DNA of 64,000 nucleotides from Hyphomicrobiaceae bacterium (GTDB lineage Bacteria > Pseudomonadota > Alphaproteobacteria > Rhizobiales > Xanthobacteraceae): the NCBI GenBank assembly GCA_947472885.1, contig CANJBX010000007.1, positions 1-64,000 of the forward strand, read 5' to 3'. The notes beneath the pieces are model-generated. The model was not told where the DNA came from, ran no database searches, and was given only the letters and a program-made list of their open reading frames with translations. The stretch's first letter is position 1. Every line of letters starts with the position of its first letter. Below are positions 143 through 48,301 of the stretch, piece after piece. A program made the position numbers and the translations under genes.

Positions 143-1414
143 TTAGTGCCTGATGCCCGGCACGCTCATCTTCAGGCCGTCGTTGACCGACGCGAGATAG
201 AGTTCGAGATCGCCATATTCCTTGGCGTCGGGCGGCAGTTCGTCGGCGCGGATATTGACCTGACACCACTGGAACCGCTTGCGGATGTCCCAGACCGATT
301 GCAGGCTGGTGCGCCACGTCGGGAAGTGATCGTACTGGCCCTTCTGCTCGCCGAGCCACTGGCCGCGAATCCACTTCAGGCCGCCCTTGGCCGGATCGTG
401 GCAATCGAGACAGGCGAAGTTGAGCTGGCCCAGTTTGCGGGCCGTCAGTTCCTTGCCGCGCGCCAGCGCAGCCTTCGCACCGGGGCTTGTCGTATCGACG
501 TGAATGATCTGGCCGTTGGCGATGAATCGCAGGTAGACCGCGAGCGCGGTGTTCTCGTTGCTCTGCATCAGCCAGTCCGCGCCGGTCGTTGCCTTGGCGT
601 GGCGGTAGACGAATTCCTCGACGCTAACCACCTTGTCGAGGCGCGGCTCGAACTTCGGCATCGCGACCGCCCAGGTCTTGAGCGCCGCCGTATTGGCATG
701 ACACGTCGCGCAGGATGAACCGCTCGGCCCGTTGACCTTCCAGAGGTCCTGCGCACGCTCGACCGCCCACATGCCCGGGTTCTGCAGATCGTCAAGGTTG
801 TCACGGGTTTCGATTGGCGCCGGGCGCTTGGTCGGATCGTCCAGCACGGCGCGGAACTTGGCCGGGGCCTTCAGCGTCTTGAGGAACACGACCATGTCGT
901 TGATTTCCTGTTCGTTGAACAGGCCATGGGTGCCCCACGGCGGCATCACCGTCTCAGGGTTATAAACGCGCGCATCGGACACATAATTGACGAGCCATTC
1001 GTCCTCGCGGCCGGCATTGCCAATTTCCGAGAGGTCAGGACCGACATTACCCGGCAGATCGGCGTTGCCCGCCTGACCCATGACGTGACACGCCAGGCAA
1101 GATCCGCCGCGCGTGCGGTCGGCAACGAGCTTTGCGCCATTGGCTGCATCACCCGTGACCGGGCCGGTGAGCTTCCTGACTTCCTTCGGTGCCGGCGGCG
1201 ACGCAAGCTTCGCCAGCGTATTGAACTTGGACATGTCGCGCTGCGGCCAGTCGGAATAGCGCTTCCACGGCGCAACCGAAGCAGCGCCCTGAAGATACAG
1301 CGGCGCTTCCTTCCTGGCCTGCGCGGGTGCCTCGCCAGAAAACACGGTCGCAATTGCAATCGCGCCTGCGAAAGCTGCGGTAACACCAACAGAAGCCAGA
1401 ATGCTGCGCTTCAT
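143..1414 (-). CDS. soxXA: Fused SoxX-SoxA c-type cytochrome (thiosulfate oxidation)
   Basis: A 423-residue exported cytochrome that appears to fuse SoxX and SoxA. After a signal peptide (about residues 1-32), the N-terminal SoxX-like domain has one heme site (CLACH, 106-110) and a Met ligand candidate in VMPPWG (Met157). The C-terminal SoxA-like domain has two further heme sites (CATCH 235-239, CLDCH 335-339) and the catalytic-cysteine region RFQWCQVNIRA (Cys384). In the Sox pathway SoxXA oxidatively couples thiosulfate to the SoxY cysteine. SoxX and SoxA are normally separate genes. There is no cysteine between the first and second SoxA heme motifs, where diheme SoxA usually has a heme ligand. 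It is the last gene of soxW-Y-Z-XA, 30 bp after soxZ. Confidence 0.85.
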   Translation of the reverse strand: MKRSILASVGVTAAFAGAIAIATVFSGEAPAQARKEAPLYLQGAASVAPWKRYSDWPQRDMSKFNTLAKLASPPAPKEVRKLTGPVTGDAANGAKLVADRTRGGSCLACHVMGQAGNADLPGNVGPDLSEIGNAGREDEWLVNYVSDARVYNPETVMPPWGTHGLFNEQEINDMVVFLKTLKAPAKFRAVLDDPTKRPAPIETRDNLDDLQNPGMWAVERAQDLWKVNGPSGSSCATCHANTAALKTWAVAMPKFEPRLDKVVSVEEFVYRHAKATTGADWLMQSNENTALAVYLRFIANGQIIHVDTTSPGAKAALARGKELTARKLGQLNFACLDCHDPAKGGLKWIRGQWLGEQKGQYDHFPTWRTSLQSVWDIRKRFQWCQVNIRADELPPDAKEYGDLELYLASVNDGLKMSVPGIRH

Positions 1415-1444
1415 CGCGAATTCTCCCTCACCAACCCGCGTGAC

Positions 1445-1768
1445 TTAAACAACGGTGATTTTTTCTTCCGTCGTCGTGACGGTACCGTCGTCTTCCACCC
1501 AGGTGAACTTGAACGTGCCGCTCTCATCGACCTTGGCGTTGAACTGGATGTACGGGTTCGCCGCAACCGCCGGCTCGATATCGGCGGAGAACACCGGCTT
1601 GCCGTTAAACTCGCAGGTGAACTTGTTGATGATCTTGCGCGGAATGATGTTGCCGGCAGCGTCCTTGCGAAGACCCGTCTCCATGACGTGCGACAGCAGC
1701 GTCTTGAGTTCAATGATCTCGCCCTTCTTGGCTTCCTTCGGCACTTTGAGGCGTGGTTTTTCGGCCAT
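1445..1768 (-). CDS. soxZ: Sulfur-oxidation carrier subunit SoxZ
   Basis: A 107-residue beta-sandwich protein without a signal peptide; it partners SoxY and is normally exported piggyback with it by the Tat system. Typical SoxZ features include the LLSHVMETG segment near residue 25, the FTCEFNGKPVF strand and an aromatic-rich C-terminal half ending in KITVV. SoxYZ carries the sulfur substrate covalently through the Sox cycle. It lies 49 bp downstream of soxY and 30 bp upstream of the soxXA fusion in the same orientation. About half-length similarity to the second soxZ (47152-47472) is obvious by eye (LISHVME / LLSHVME, IIPR). Confidence 0.93.
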   Translation of the reverse strand: MAEKPRLKVPKEAKKGEIIELKTLLSHVMETGLRKDAAGNIIPRKIINKFTCEFNGKPVFSADIEPAVAANPYIQFNAKVDESGTFKFTWVEDDGTVTTTEEKITVV

Positions 1769-1817
1769 GATCGTCTCCTGAAATTTCGTTTCGGTCTGGA
1801 CTGCGGACGATCGGCGG

Positions 1818-2273
1818 TCAGCCGCCGCAGCCGCCGATCGTCACCTTGACCTGCTTGCGGTCGGTGAAGAATTTTCCGTCATTGGTCTTCGCCACGACGA
1901 TGATGTTTTGCGTGGTTTGCAAACGAATGCGCGTCGCGGCCGTCGCCTTGCCAGAGAGCGGTGTCAGGTGGAACGTCGCAACGCCGGGACGCGGATTGCC
2001 GTCGGCGACGACCAGAATGTCGCTGATATAGTTGTCGGCCGTCATCGGGCTTTCGACCACAACGGACAGCGGTACGGTGTTGCCGTTCTCGGCGATCTCC
2101 GAGAGATCGATGGAAATCTTGCCCTTGTCCATCGCCTTGCCGCCGGTGAACTTGGCAATCTCGGCGTCGGTTTCAGCAGGGGTTGCGAATGAAGGGCTGA
2201 TGTCGCCAATCGTGATTACAGCGATGGCGCCAGATCCCAGCGCGAGCGCCTGCCGGCGCGTAATCGTTTGCAT
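1818..2273 (-). CDS. soxY: Sulfur carrier protein SoxY (canonical GGCGG arm)
   Basis: A 151-residue SoxY. The N-terminus has a Tat signal (TRRQALAL, then a hydrophobic stretch to about residue 30). The C-terminus ends exactly in GGCGG (147-151), the flexible arm whose Cys149 carries the sulfur intermediate through SoxXA, SoxB and SoxCD. The order soxW-soxY-soxZ-soxXA on one strand indicates an operon. No soxB or soxCD is present in the window; they may lie beyond the left edge. Compare the second SoxY at 46685-47152, whose arm is different. Confidence 0.95.
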   Translation of the reverse strand: MQTITRRQALALGSGAIAVITIGDISPSFATPAETDAEIAKFTGGKAMDKGKISIDLSEIAENGNTVPLSVVVESPMTADNYISDILVVADGNPRPGVATFHLTPLSGKATAATRIRLQTTQNIIVVAKTNDGKFFTDRKQVKVTIGGCGG

Positions 2274-43471: not shown

Positions 43472-43921
43472 ATGGTCAAGCTCAACATCAATGGGAAAAC
43501 CCAGGACGTGGACGTCGATCCATCGACGCCGCTGTTGTGGGCGCTGCGCGAGAACGCGGGCCTAACCGGCACCAAATATGGCTGCGGCATTGCGCAATGC
43601 GGCGCCTGCACGGTTCACATCGATGGCCGCGCCGCCCGCTCCTGCTCCGTTCCGGTCAGTTCCGCCATGGGCAAGCAGATCACCACGATTGAAGGTCTCG
43701 CGGTCAACGGCAAGCTTCACCCCGTGCAGCAGGTCTGGCTCGACAAGGACGTTCCCCAGTGCGGCTACTGTCAGAGCGGCATGATGATGGCGGTCGCGGC
43801 GCTGCTGAAGCAGAAGCCAAAGCCGACCGATGCCGACATCGACAAGGCGATCACCAATATCTGCAGGTGCGGAACCTACTCGCGGGTGCGTGAAGGCATC
43901 CACGCTGCGGCCAAGGCATAA
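43472..43921 (+). CDS. iorA: [2Fe-2S] subunit of molybdenum hydroxylase, IorA-like
   Basis: A 149-residue small subunit of the xanthine oxidase family, closest in form to isoquinoline 1-oxidoreductase alpha. The first cluster is bound by Cys38, Cys43, Cys46 and Cys58 ([16 protein letters not shown], then RSC). The second is bound by Cys97, Cys100, Cys131 and Cys133 ([18 protein letters not shown]). It passes electrons from the molybdenum centre to an outside acceptor. No signal peptide, so it is likely exported piggyback with the Tat-dependent large subunit, 11 bp downstream. Confidence 0.92.
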
Positions 43922-43932
43922 GGAGCAGCATC

Positions 43933-46140
43933 ATGAATTACATGCCAAAGATGGATCGCCGCTCGTTCCTCGTCACGTCCGCCGCTGCGGGCCTGGCGCT
44001 TGGGTTCAACATTCCTGACAACGCCGAAGCCGCAGGCATGCAGACCGGAATGTCTGCACAACTGCCGGCGCAGATGCCGGTAGCGCCCGAGATCAACGCC
44101 TGGGTCGTCATCAATCCTGACGATACAGTCGTGATCCGCATCGCCCGCGTCGACATGGGCCAGGGCACCCTCACCGGCCTTGCCCAGCTTGTCGCCGAAG
44201 AACTCGAATGCGACTGGTCCAAGGTGACGTGGGATTACCCGACGCCCGGCCTCAACCTGTCACGCAAGCGCATCTGGCAAAATTACCAGACCGCTGGCAG
44301 CCAGGGCATCCGGCAGTCGCAGAAGTACGTCCGCGAAGGCGGCGCTGCTGCGCGCATGATGCTCATTCAGGCCGCGGCGAATGAATGGAAGGTGCCGGTC
44401 GGCGAATGCACCGTCGATAAGGGTGTCATCACCCACACCGCATCGAAGCGCACGACGACCTACGGCAAGGTAGCCGCGGCCGCTGCGAAGCTCAACGCTC
44501 CCGCCGAACCGAAGCTCAAGGATCCGAAGGACTGGAAGATCGCCGGCAAGCCGGTGAAGCGTCTTGATACCGCCGACAAGATCACCGGCAAGCAGATCTA
44601 CGGCATCGACATCAAGCTGCCGGGCATGCTCAACGCCGCGATCCGCCAGAGCCCCGTGATCGGCAACAAGATCAAGAGCTTTGATGCTGCCGCCGTCGAG
44701 AAGATGCCGGGTGTCAAGAAGGTCGTGCAGGTCGGTGACGACGCCGCCGCCGTGGTGGCCGACACCTGGTATCACGCCAAGACCGCGATCGAGGCGCTGC
44801 CGATCGTCTGGGAAGAGACCGCCAGCAACAAGGTCTCGAGCGAGACGATTGCGGCGGTGCTGAAGGAAGGCCTCACCGCAGACACGAAGTTCGTCGGCAA
44901 CAAGCAGGGCGACGCCCTCGCCGAACTTGGCAAAGCGGCGAAAAAGATCGAGGCGGTCTACGGCTATCCCTACCAGAACCACGCGCCCATGGAGCCGATG
45001 AACTGCACGGCACTGTGGACCGCGGACAAGTGTGAGGTCTGGTCGCCGTCGCAAAACGCGGAAACCTCGCTCGCAGTTTGCGCCGCGGCATCGGGTCTGC
45101 CGGTGGCGCAATGCGAGTCCTATCGTATGTCGCTCGGCGGCGGCTTCGGCCGGCGCGCCTCCTCGCACGACTTCGTGCAGCAGGCCGTGCTGATCGCCAA
45201 GCAGATGCCGGGCACGCCGATCAAGCTGATCTGGTCGCGCGAAGAGGACATGCTGCGTGGCCGCTTCCACCCGATCTCGCAGGCCAAGCTGACCGGCGGG
45301 CTCGACGACAAGGGCAACCTGACGTCGCTGCACATGCGCATATCGTCGCAGTCGATTGTTGCGAACCTTATCCCGCAGCTCTTGAAGGACGGCATGGACT
45401 CGTTCGTGTTCCAGGGACTCAATCCCGGCGGCACCGAAGGCGCGTTCGGCTACGACATTCCGAACCTGCTGATCGACCACTCGATGCGCAATCCGCACAT
45501 CACGCCGGGCTTCTGGCGTGGCGTGAACAACAACCAGAACGCCATCTATCTCGAATGCTTCATGGACGAACTGGCGAATGCCGCCGGTCAGGATCCGCTG
45601 GAGTTCCGCCGCAAGCTGATGGCGAAGTTCCCGAAGCATCTCGGCACGCTCAATGCCGTCGCTGAGAAAATCGGCTGGGGCACCAAGCCGCCGGAAGGCG
45701 TGTTCCGCGGCATCGCCCAGCACATGGGCTATGGCAGCTACGTCGCGGCGGCTTCCGAAGTCTCGGTCAGCAAGAGCGGCGCGCTGAAGATTCATCGCAT
45801 CGTCGCAGCGACCAACTGCGGCCACGCGGTTAATCCACAGCAGATCCAGTACCAGATCGAGGGCTCCTTCGTGTACGGGCTTTCCGCCCTGCTCTACGGC
45901 GAATGCACTGTCGCCGGCGGCAAGATCGAGCAGGAGAACTTCGACACTTATAACGTGATGCGCATGGACGAAATGCCGGTGGTCGAATCCATCATCATGC
46001 CGTCCAACGACTTCTGGGGTGGTGTCGGCGAACCGACGATCTTCGTCGCCGCCCCCTCGGTGCTGAACGCCATCTTCGCGGCGACCGGCAAGCGCATTCG
46101 CACGTTCCCGCTCAAGAACCACGACCTGCGCTCGGCGTGA
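43933..46140 (+). CDS. iorB: Molybdopterin subunit of molybdenum hydroxylase, IorB-like
   Basis: A 735-residue exported molybdenum hydroxylase subunit without FAD. It starts with a twin-arginine signal (MDRRSFLVTSAAAGLALGF). Cofactor motifs include SLGGGFGRR (middle) and the catalytic glutamate Glu700 in GVGEP. The layout resembles isoquinoline 1-oxidoreductase beta and related aldehyde/heterocycle hydroxylases; substrate is not known. Its electron acceptor could be the cytochromes of the sox genes that follow 44 bp downstream. Confidence 0.9.
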   Translation: MNYMPKMDRRSFLVTSAAAGLALGFNIPDNAEAAGMQTGMSAQLPAQMPVAPEINAWVVINPDDTVVIRIARVDMGQGTLTGLAQLVAEELECDWSKVTWDYPTPGLNLSRKRIWQNYQTAGSQGIRQSQKYVREGGAAARMMLIQAAANEWKVPVGECTVDKGVITHTASKRTTTYGKVAAAAAKLNAPAEPKLKDPKDWKIAGKPVKRLDTADKITGKQIYGIDIKLPGMLNAAIRQSPVIGNKIKSFDAAAVEKMPGVKKVVQVGDDAAAVVADTWYHAKTAIEALPIVWEETASNKVSSETIAAVLKEGLTADTKFVGNKQGDALAELGKAAKKIEAVYGYPYQNHAPMEPMNCTALWTADKCEVWSPSQNAETSLAVCAAASGLPVAQCESYRMSLGGGFGRRASSHDFVQQAVLIAKQMPGTPIKLIWSREEDMLRGRFHPISQAKLTGGLDDKGNLTSLHMRISSQSIVANLIPQLLKDGMDSFVFQGLNPGGTEGAFGYDIPNLLIDHSMRNPHITPGFWRGVNNNQNAIYLECFMDELANAAGQDPLEFRRKLMAKFPKHLGTLNAVAEKIGWGTKPPEGVFRGIAQHMGYGSYVAAASEVSVSKSGALKIHRIVAATNCGHAVNPQQIQYQIEGSFVYGLSALLYGECTVAGGKIEQENFDTYNVMRMDEMPVVESIIMPSNDFWGGVGEPTIFVAAPSVLNAIFAATGKRIRTFPLKNHDLRSA

Positions 46141-46184
46141 TATGATTTGGGGCGGCGCTTGATCCCGCCGCCCCGGATACCCGA

Positions 46185-46688
46185 ATGAACCGCACCCCGT
46201 CAGGCTTACGCTCGCATTCACAAAAGCCGGCGGGCACGCTCGTACCAGGTTTGGTGGCGTTGCTCGCTTCGCTTGCGGCGGCACAGGCACAGGACCGTGT
46301 GAAGCCCTATGCAGTTGTCCGCGAGGCTATCCCCTTGTCGCTCACCGGAAAGCCGGGCGATCCGGCACGCGGGCGCGCCATCGTCGCCAACCGGCAGGTC
46401 GGGCTTTGTCTTCTGTGCCACTCGGCAAGCATTATCCCGGAGGAGCAATTCCAAGGCGACCTCGCCCCGGACCTTGCGGGCGCCGGCTCGCGCTGGAAAA
46501 TCGGGGAATTGCGCCTGCGTATTGTCGATGCCGGCCGCTTCAATGCCAACACAATCATGCCGGCCTATTACAAGACCGGCGGACTGACACGGGTGGGTTC
46601 AAGCTTTGCCGGTAAACCGATATTGTCGGCAGAACAGATTGAAGACGTGGTCGCCTATCTCGCGACCCTGCGCGAAGTGAAGAAATGA
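46185..46688 (+). CDS. soxX: SoxX-type monoheme cytochrome c
   Basis: A 167-residue exported cytochrome. It has a signal peptide (cleavage near AQAQD, residue 36), one heme site CLLCH (75-79) and a Met ligand candidate Met125 in IMPAYYKTGG, the SoxX pattern. With SoxA it forms the SoxXA complex. The stop overlaps the next gene's ATG (ATGA), so translation is coupled to soxY. It follows iorB by 44 bp in the same direction. Confidence 0.92.
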   Translation: MNRTPSGLRSHSQKPAGTLVPGLVALLASLAAAQAQDRVKPYAVVREAIPLSLTGKPGDPARGRAIVANRQVGLCLLCHSASIIPEEQFQGDLAPDLAGAGSRWKIGELRLRIVDAGRFNANTIMPAYYKTGGLTRVGSSFAGKPILSAEQIEDVVAYLATLREVKK

Positions 46689-47152
46689 CGGACATCAACA
46701 CGACACGACGCGAATTGCTGATCGGGGCTGGCGCGAGCGGCGCTACGATGCTGTTCGCCGTTCGACCCGCCGGCGCGACACCAGAAGCGATGAAGACTGC
46801 GATCCGCAAGGTGATCGGCGAGGCAAAAGTCAGCACCGGCAGGATCAAGCTCGATATTCCCCCGCTGGTCGAGAACGGCAATACGGTCGCAATGTCGCTC
46901 ACGGTCGAAAGCCCGATGACGGCAAAGGATTATGTGAAGGGCGTCCATATCTTCAACGAGCGCAACCCGCAGCCGAACGTCGTGACGTTCCATCTCGGCC
47001 CGCGCGCTGGCAAGGCTGACATCTCCGCGCGTATCCGCCTCTCCGACTCGCAAAACGTGATCGGCATTGCGGAAATGAGCGACGGCTCGTTCTGGTCGCA
47101 TGAGATCAGCGTAATCGTGACACTGGCCGCCTGTCTGGAAGGCACCAACTGA
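46685..47152 (+). CDS. soxY: SoxY-like carrier with altered C-terminal arm
   Basis: A 155-residue SoxY-like protein with a Tat signal (TTRRELLIGAG). The fold segments (LVENGNTVAMSLTVESPMTA, RNPQPNVVTFHLGP) match SoxY closely. However, the last residues are TLAACLEGTN (Cys150), not the GGCGG arm that normally carries sulfur. The cysteine stays in place but its flexible glycines are lost, and five residues follow it. The gene overlaps both neighbours (ATGA with soxX, 1 bp with soxZ). Confidence 0.88.
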   Translation: MTDINTTRRELLIGAGASGATMLFAVRPAGATPEAMKTAIRKVIGEAKVSTGRIKLDIPPLVENGNTVAMSLTVESPMTAKDYVKGVHIFNERNPQPNVVTFHLGPRAGKADISARIRLSDSQNVIGIAEMSDGSFWSHEISVIVTLAACLEGTN

Positions 47153-47472
47153 TGGCCCGCGTCCTCATCAACGTTCCTGCTACGGCGAAGCGCGGCAGCG
47201 TCATCCAGATCAAGACGCTGATCTCGCATGTCATGGAGCCGGGATTCCGCCCCGGTCCCGACGGCAAGATCATTCCGCGCGACATCATTACCCTGATGAC
47301 GTGCAAATATAATGGCGAGGAAGTTTTCCGCGCTGACATGTTCCCGGCCGTCGCCGCCAATCCGTTCGTTACGTTCCACACCATCGCGACGGAAAGCGGA
47401 AAGCTGGAATTCGCATGGACCGGCGACAATGGTTTCACCGAAACCGCTTCGGCAAACATCACCGTCGAATGA
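47152..47472 (+). CDS. soxZ: SoxZ-like carrier partner
   Basis: A 106-residue SoxZ homologue (LISHVMEPGFRPG, IIPRDIITLMTCKYNGEEVF), close to that at 1445-1768. It is expected to pair with the SoxY-like protein upstream and be exported with it. The ATG overlaps the soxY stop by one base (TGATG), showing tight coupling. Confidence 0.93.
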   Translation: MARVLINVPATAKRGSVIQIKTLISHVMEPGFRPGPDGKIIPRDIITLMTCKYNGEEVFRADMFPAVAANPFVTFHTIATESGKLEFAWTGDNGFTETASANITVE

Positions 47473-47482
47473 GCATGGCCGA

Positions 47483-48301
47483 ATGACCGCGGCCCGGCGT
47501 ATCTTTCACATCCTGCATGCCGCCTCCCTGCCTGCCTGCGCGGCAGCGATCTGCATTCTCTCGCTTGCCGCAGCGCCGTTGCGTGCCGGCGACATCCCGC
47601 TGAACCAGCGGCAATCCGGCTACGACACCATGGGCCGCGACACCCGCGCCATGCAGGACGACGACACCGCCAATCCGGCGACCCTGTGGCTGCTCGACGG
47701 CGAAGCACTGTGGAGCAAAAAGGAAGGTGCAGCGGGCAAGGCCTGCGCCGATTGCCACACCGACGCGGCAACTTCCATGAAAGGCGTCGCGGCGCGCTAT
47801 CCGGCGTTCAATACGAAACAGAACAAGCCGCTCGACATCGAAGGTCGCATCAACAATTGCCGCACCGAGCACCAGCAGGCGCAGCCGTTGCCGTTCGAAA
47901 ACAAGGACCTACTGGCGCTGACGGCCTATGTCGCACGGCAGTCGCGCGGCATGGCAATCGCGCCGCCACCGGAGAACATGCAGCCTGTGGTCGATCAAGG
48001 CCGCGCCATCTTCGAGAAGCGGCAAGGCCAGCTCAATCTTTCCTGCGCGCAGTGCCATGACGACAACTGGGGCCGCAAGCTCGCAGGCAGCGCCATTCCG
48101 CAGGGCCATCCGAACGGCTATCCGCTTTACCGGCTGGAGTGGCAATCGGTCGGCTCGCTGCAACGGCGGCTGCGCAACTGTCTCATCGGCATGCGCGCGG
48201 AGGGTTATGCGCTTGGTTCGCCGGAATATGTCGCGCTGGAAGCATTCCTGATGTGGCGCGCACGCGGCATGAAAATGGAATCGCCGGCGGTCCGGCCGTA
48301 A
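47483..48301 (+). CDS. soxA: SoxA-type diheme cytochrome c
   Basis: A 272-residue exported cytochrome (signal to about residue 35). Two heme sites: CADCH (88-92) and CAQCH (188-192). Cys126 (NNCRTEH) is a candidate heme ligand, and Cys233 (RRLRNCLIGMRAE) the persulfide-forming active-site cysteine, with the C-terminal YALGSPEYVALEAFLMWRAR typical of SoxA. It starts 10 bp after soxZ. It completes the ior-soxXYZA unit; no soxB or soxCD follows, as the next gene is anmK on the other strand. Confidence 0.93.
   Translation: MTAARRIFHILHAASLPACAAAICILSLAAAPLRAGDIPLNQRQSGYDTMGRDTRAMQDDDTANPATLWLLDGEALWSKKEGAAGKACADCHTDAATSMKGVAARYPAFNTKQNKPLDIEGRINNCRTEHQQAQPLPFENKDLLALTAYVARQSRGMAIAPPPENMQPVVDQGRAIFEKRQGQLNLSCAQCHDDNWGRKLAGSAIPQGHPNGYPLYRLEWQSVGSLQRRLRNCLIGMRAEGYALGSPEYVALEAFLMWRARGMKMESPAVRP

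Follow-up and report, generated by a model that had tools for sequence, protein, structure and literature searches.

A molybdenum hydroxylase gene pair tied to re-specialised soxXYZA genes in Alpha- and Betaproteobacteria

The canonical Sox system comprises SoxXA, SoxYZ, SoxB and SoxCD. A different arrangement, the second sox cluster of Starkeya novella (soxX2Y2Z2A2F2 with Snov_1975/1976), was published in 2013 and joins a soxXYZA set without SoxB or SoxCD, in one operon, to a molybdenum enzyme of the xanthine oxidase family (PMC3797975). In the available text of that paper, the SoxAX and SoxYZ proteins of the second cluster went undetected, its transcripts were very low on thiosulfate, methanol and glucose, and the authors left the role of the second clusters open, considering a redundant duplicate; it is the only description of a molybdenum hydroxylase/sox combination in the literature we searched, and the text available to us assigns the arrangement no function. 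We analysed a 64,000-nucleotide stretch of a Hyphomicrobiaceae bacterium (the window: positions 1 to 64,000, forward strand, of contig CANJBX010000007.1, assembly GCA_947472885.1), which carries the same combination at 43472-48301. Our comparison shows that the molybdenum hydroxylase genes, iorAB, are genetically tied to re-specialised SoxXA and SoxYZ, and the changes at the active sites of these proteins appear to favour a substrate other than thiosulfate on the carrier. The S. novella cluster has soxF2/flavocytochrome genes, whereas the window cluster has none. The arrangement is not undescribed, contrary to what a preliminary description of this DNA proposed: the gene order has been in print since 2013 and the SoxY family bears a name in NCBIfam. 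The spread of the block, its occurrence without SoxB and the paired active-site changes were not found in the literature searched, which covered few subscription papers and gave most matches as listings.

The cluster consists of six open reading frames, all on the forward strand, in the order iorA-iorB-soxX-soxY-soxZ-soxA, with junctions of 11, 44, -4 (ATGA), -1 (TGATG) and 10 bp; the reading frames and family matches thus bear out the tight, partly overlapping, same-direction block that was first reported. The iorA-like gene (43472..43921) encodes a [2Fe-2S] subunit of 149 residues that matches Fer2_2 (97 bits) and Fer2 (41 bits) and in which no signal peptide was seen by eye. The iorB-like gene (43933..46140) encodes a molybdenum cofactor subunit of 735 residues (MoCoBD_1/2) with the leader MDRRSFLV, read by eye as a twin-arginine (Tat) leader, and with Glu700 (46030-46032) in a GGVGEP motif. 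The features of the xanthine oxidase family (IorAB/aldehyde dehydrogenase branch) are thus present, namely two [2Fe-2S] domains, molybdenum cofactor domains and the GxGEP glutamate, and the glutamate of the GG[VIA]GEP motif is kept in all 82 aligned IorB rows. None of the six proteins matched a flavin adenine dinucleotide (FAD) domain at E 0.001. The proposal that IorAB is an exported, FAD-less molybdenum hydroxylase of this family, encoded beside c-type cytochromes, is supported at the level of predicted protein features.

SoxX (46185..46688), a monohaem c-type cytochrome (CLLCH; TIGR04485, 75.1 bits, cut-off 61), SoxZ (47152..47472; TIGR04490, 86.4 bits, cut-off 76) and the dihaem SoxA (47483..48301; TIGR04484) each score over the cut-offs of the curated thiosulfate-oxidation models; the start codon of soxA is the ATG at 47483, the triplet at 47477 being GGC. 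SoxY (46685..47152) has a twin-arginine leader and the arm TLAACLE (Cys150, 47132-47134; Glu152, 47138-47140). It lies under the cut-off for true SoxY (TIGR04488, 97 bits, cut-off 125) and over that of TIGR04487, the 'SoxY-related AACIE arm protein' (211.9 bits, cut-off 172), a sequence family known to us by its name, which states no function; the carrier arm is as unusual as it had seemed. Neither SoxB, nor SoxCD (sought among the six genes, no genome-wide search being made), nor soxF/fccAB is encoded within the cluster. A canonical SoxY (GGCGG arm), a SoxZ and a SoxX-SoxA fusion are encoded at the start of the window (143..2273, reverse strand), outside the module, where they serve as a comparison set, and the SoxB of this genome lies on another contig (C89); the six-gene cluster is therefore a second sox set of the genome and not its main one.

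A search for SoxY in one genome per species (84,980 species) yielded 72 loci, found through short peptides shared exactly with the window SoxY and hence favouring close relatives; iorAB lies upstream of soxY in nearly all of them. Together with a second sample and plasmids this made 95 loci (L011 and L109 being one contig), and removal of L068, a canonical sox locus, and of L126 and L135, which lack a module SoxY, left 92 with the variant SoxY. In 87 of the 92, iorB is on the strand of the variant soxY and no more than 8 kb away from it; soxX and soxA are present in 86 and fccB, for a protein of flavocytochrome c type, in 58. The five loci without iorB are L025, where iorAB adjoins on the opposite strand; L044 and L111, which are contig ends, another contig of the L111 genome ending in iorAB-fccAB; L062, soxYZ alone in a metagenome-assembled genome with a complete module at another locus (L050); and L119, where iorAB sits on another contig. 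In an independent sample of 192 alphaproteobacterial genomes, TIGR04487 exceeded its cut-off in 13 and the xAC arm added 5 (the best 30 places being given as loci, and weaker SoxY matches mostly without a check of the arm). IorB at 59% identity or more occurs in 19 of these genomes, two by partial matches at contig ends, and 18 of the 19 also have the variant SoxY, the exception being G114 (hypergeometric 2e-24, kinship ignored). A chance neighbourhood is ruled out by this co-occurrence and the linkage in 87 of 92 loci. The preliminary description took the block for a functional unit whose genes should co-occur and be co-transcribed, and on the first of these counts it holds, since the neighbourhood, when sought in other genomes, recurs.

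The block is conserved in Alpha- and Betaproteobacteria, and three plasmids, from Neorhizobium, Methylobacterium and Roseomonas, carry it. In a tree of IorB, 71 rows form one group (Shimodaira-Hasegawa-like approximate likelihood ratio test, SH-aLRT, 100), every one of them part of a sox operon; 68 adjoin soxY and 3 are tandem copies directly upstream. Because SoxY served to gather the rows, the tree alone is no proof of exclusivity, and the sox-linked label needs five changes on it, so that sox linkage is not confined to the 71-row group. More distant IorB copies (40-49% identity) stand outside the 19-genome count: those of G131 and G122 are followed by SoxY, that of G227 by a truncated SoxY-like start (by eye), and that of G112 (44%) by no SoxY. 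The G122 locus (L168 1351-12703) holds two tandem iorAB with soxYZ, a protein with an FGE-sulfatase domain, fccAB and soxXA.

The window proteins share with the canonical system the SoxX, SoxY, SoxZ and SoxA families, the arm cysteine and the catalytic haem cysteine; they differ from it, besides the missing SoxB and SoxCD, in the replaced GGCGG arm and in SoxA, where Glu takes the place of Lys or Ser. The SoxY arm reads xACx(E/D) in 90 of 92 rows, the other two ending in Ile or Val, and its cysteine is kept in all 92. Among the 85 SoxA rows of at least 180 residues, the haem-ligating catalytic cysteine, at 48179-48181 in the window SoxA by alignment to 1h31 and 2c1d, is kept in 85, as are two arginines, at -4 and -16. 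Both reactive cysteines are thus under constraint, a sign that thiol chemistry is still carried out by the Sox part. Position -14 (48137-48139) is Glu in 82 rows, Asp in 2 and Thr in 1 (84/85 acidic), the sole Thr belonging to L119, a locus without adjoining iorAB. At the same position, 13 distinct canonical SoxA from GGCGG loci have Lys (8) or Ser (5) in a pattern-free alignment count, the three solved wild-type structures have Lys (2) or Ser (1), and none of the 16 canonical SoxA compared has an acid (hypergeometric 6e-17 with 15 canonical rows, kinship ignored). In the related case of TsdA, the part of the published account available to us gives Arg109 as a thiosulfate contact (PMC4423706), and the spacing, together with the Lys/Ser pattern, suggests that -14 of SoxA is the corresponding position. 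The change of charge makes it probable that the conjugation partner is not thiosulfate, and thiosulfate as the substrate of the module seems unlikely. The very low expression of the S. novella cluster on thiosulfate, as far as the available text reports it, fits such a partner. Being conserved, the -14 change offers a direct mutational test of the role of the second cluster.

SoxB was sought in the genomes of 50 of the 72 loci, chosen to thin Mesorhizobium, Roseomonas and short contigs of metagenome-assembled genomes; it was over the cut-off in 31 and not in 19. As many of the 50 are metagenome-assembled, absence may reflect incompleteness, although 12 of the 19 are named isolate assemblies. 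Chelatococcus caeni and Oceanibaculum pacificum are among the isolates in which no SoxB exceeded the cut-off. True SoxY exceeded its cut-off in 4 of 32 genomes searched (nine of them outside the SoxB search), all four SoxB-positive, and in none of the 19 SoxB-negative genomes, which form part of the 32; many of the 32 have extra SoxY-like matches below the cut-off, left unclassified. Genome surveys often take Sox genes as a sign of thiosulfate oxidation. Since SoxX, SoxZ and SoxA pass the thiosulfate models, yet the module occurs without SoxB and with an acidic SoxA, genomes that carry it may be miscalled thiosulfate oxidisers.

We tentatively suggest, as the leading reading although one we think somewhat less likely than not, that the block encodes a self-contained periplasmic module in which SoxXA links a thiol other than thiosulfate to SoxYZ, IorAB oxidises the thiol compound or its product, and FccAB clears the sulfur. 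The catalytic haem cysteine that SoxXA has kept would serve to link the thiol, probably organic and neutral or cationic, oxidatively to the arm cysteine of SoxY. IorAB would then oxidise the carbon part, either bound to the carrier or as a released product; the electrons would leave through its [2Fe-2S] clusters for SoxXA, FccA or a further c-type cytochrome and finally reach an oxidase. The sulfur left on the carrier would be removed by FccAB, whether encoded in the cluster or at another place in the genome. SoxB would not be needed because no sulfonate would be formed. The sequence of events, the type of substrate and the route of the electrons are our inference. A more specific version, which we regard as doubtful, is a Sox system for organic sulfur in which the charge-reversed SoxXA loads a neutral or cationic thiol, the molybdenum enzyme hydroxylates the adjacent carbon on SoxY, an aldehyde-like product leaves, and a persulfide stays behind for FccAB. 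If true, this would be a molybdenum hydroxylase acting on a carrier-bound substrate.

Several observations weigh against the carrier-based module. We know of no enzyme of the xanthine oxidase family that acts on a protein-bound substrate. G114, a complete genome in a single contig, has iorAB-soxX-soxA (L166 10650-11916) with an acidic SoxA and no SoxY over the cut-off (best PF13501 match, 12.9 bits), so that not every instance needs a carrier. Five loci (L017, L029, L069, L075 and L059, the last with iorA cut off) have iorAB-soxYZ without SoxXA, the smallest unit with SoxY. The same genome as the window has a paralogue of IorB, at 60% identity and with no adjoining sox genes, on contig C16. 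One flavocytochrome subunit of the S. novella cluster was detected, though weakly, in every condition except glucose according to the available text (PMC3797975), so that the cluster appears not to be wholly silent there. Finally, the change of charge in SoxA may serve protein docking and not the choice of substrate. The five loci also rule out SoxXA as a constant partner within the cluster; SoxA is encoded elsewhere in six of six genomes of loci lacking SoxXA (including L062). That SoxXA is lost only alongside SoxB was considered and set aside (5/31 vs 0/19, p 0.08, not significant). The second iorAB on C16 (L126 7481-10182) adjoins phytanoyl-CoA-dioxygenase-like and TRAP genes (neighbour labels by eye).

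The strongest of the rival explanations, which we nonetheless think rather unlikely, makes IorAB an ordinary exported oxidiser of aldehydes or heterocycles with SoxXA (or FccA) as electron acceptor and SoxYZ as a side player. The closest solved relative of IorB is the membrane aldehyde dehydrogenase of Gluconobacter oxydans (8gy3_C), which the window sequence matches over its full length, N-terminal part included (252 bits), other matches in the same listing aligning only from about residue 190-204. The predicted IorB model (m31a6e318bcc7; mean predicted local distance difference test score, pLDDT, 77.7, with the first 55 residues poorly modelled) has the same chain as its best structural match (Z 40.8, root-mean-square deviation 3.3, 665 residues, 26% identity). 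The Gluconobacter enzyme has a haem subunit; in the window the cytochrome partner would instead be SoxX, SoxA or FccA, and no substrate is known to be shared. Acceptance of electrons by a cytochrome would also fit the lack of an FAD domain match among the six proteins. No observation argues more strongly than G114 against a universal need for a carrier, and none serves this explanation better; it favours it at least in that genome. The SoxA of G114 (L146) also has Glu at -14, so that the change goes with IorAB even where SoxY is missing. An electron relay needs neither the SoxY cysteine nor the catalytic cysteine of SoxA, yet both are kept throughout; nor does it account for the five loci without adjoining SoxXA, or for the departure of SoxA from the canonical residue at a substrate-contact position.

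Two further explanations are, we think, improbable. In one, SoxYZ, SoxXA and FccAB would supply sulfane sulfur to the molybdenum enzyme, for example to restore its sulfido ligand, in a parallel to the SoxYZ-like carriers found with pyrroloquinoline quinone (PQQ) dehydrogenases. That SoxB is dispensable and that iorAB-soxYZ is the smallest SoxY unit would suit such maintenance; the absence of SoxY in G114 and of adjoining SoxYZ beside the C16 paralogue would not. To our knowledge, PaoABC of Escherichia coli needs no SoxYZ. A SoxYZ-like carrier does consistently accompany certain quinoprotein dehydrogenases, according to the part of the source available to us (PMC12997753), and there, as here, a carrier of SoxYZ type stands beside a periplasmic dehydrogenase; that carrier (TIGR04557) is, however, a fused SoxYZ with a PQQ enzyme, and the window SoxY scores 59 bits against its cut-off of 140.

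The other explanation, to which we give a similarly small chance, is a variant of inorganic sulfur oxidation acting on thiosulfate, sulfide or polysulfide, with IorAB replacing SoxCD and SoxB. SoxCD is itself a molybdenum enzyme. In the available text of one account it is related to sulfite oxidases (PMC5336275), and Sox and flavocytochrome c parts are indeed present. Enzymes of the xanthine oxidase family, however, are known to oxidise carbon. The acid at the presumed thiosulfate-contact position of SoxA speaks against thiosulfate; sulfide and polysulfide are less affected by this argument from charge. Moreover, the S. novella cluster is very low with thiosulfate, and SoxB coexists with the module in 31 of 50 genomes. 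That the block is a functionless redundant duplicate, as the S. novella authors considered, would fit the very low expression in three growth conditions reported in the available text (PMC3797975), and is very improbable given its intact catalytic residues, its conservation in two proteobacterial classes, its carriage on plasmids and its presence where SoxB is not found.

An fccB-like gene is present in 44 of the 72 loci and an fccA-like gene in 32, mostly between iorB and soxX; the FccB of L005 carries FCSD (sulfide dehydrogenase) domains. FccB as a required partner in trans was not retained: a homologue (37-62% identity) occurs in 21 of 22 genomes whose clusters lack fccB, a figure without control genomes and for a protein that may be common. 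In the genome of the window the homologue (60% identity) is on contig C32, where this lone gene (L130 9660-10949) is divergent from a gene for a molybdenum hydroxylase large subunit and from ring-hydroxylating dioxygenase-like genes (the latter labelled by eye). Other neighbours are UbiD/UbiX and amidase genes in Rhodoplanes-like loci (L007, L010 and, in part, L012) and an amidase, an NMT1-type transporter and a polysaccharide-deacetylase-like gene in Roseomonas loci; as a clue to the substrate, these two sets have only the amidase in common. In L007, L010 and L012 the amidase gene overlaps the end of soxA, with a gene for a UbiD-type decarboxylase upstream.

Within the window cluster, the 44-bp gap between iorB and soxX holds a GC-rich hairpin with no T-run (46145..46178, forward strand; -24.9 kcal/mol, z -4.04), which slightly weakens the idea of one transcript. 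The only terminator-like site predicted near it is a stem of 5 pairs (46127-46139), and predicted promoters and terminators are about as numerous as expected from shuffled sequence. The SoxX-SoxA protein of the canonical set (143-1414, reverse strand) is a natural fusion of 423 residues whose best plasmid match is from Indioceanicola profundi (56.7% over 92%).

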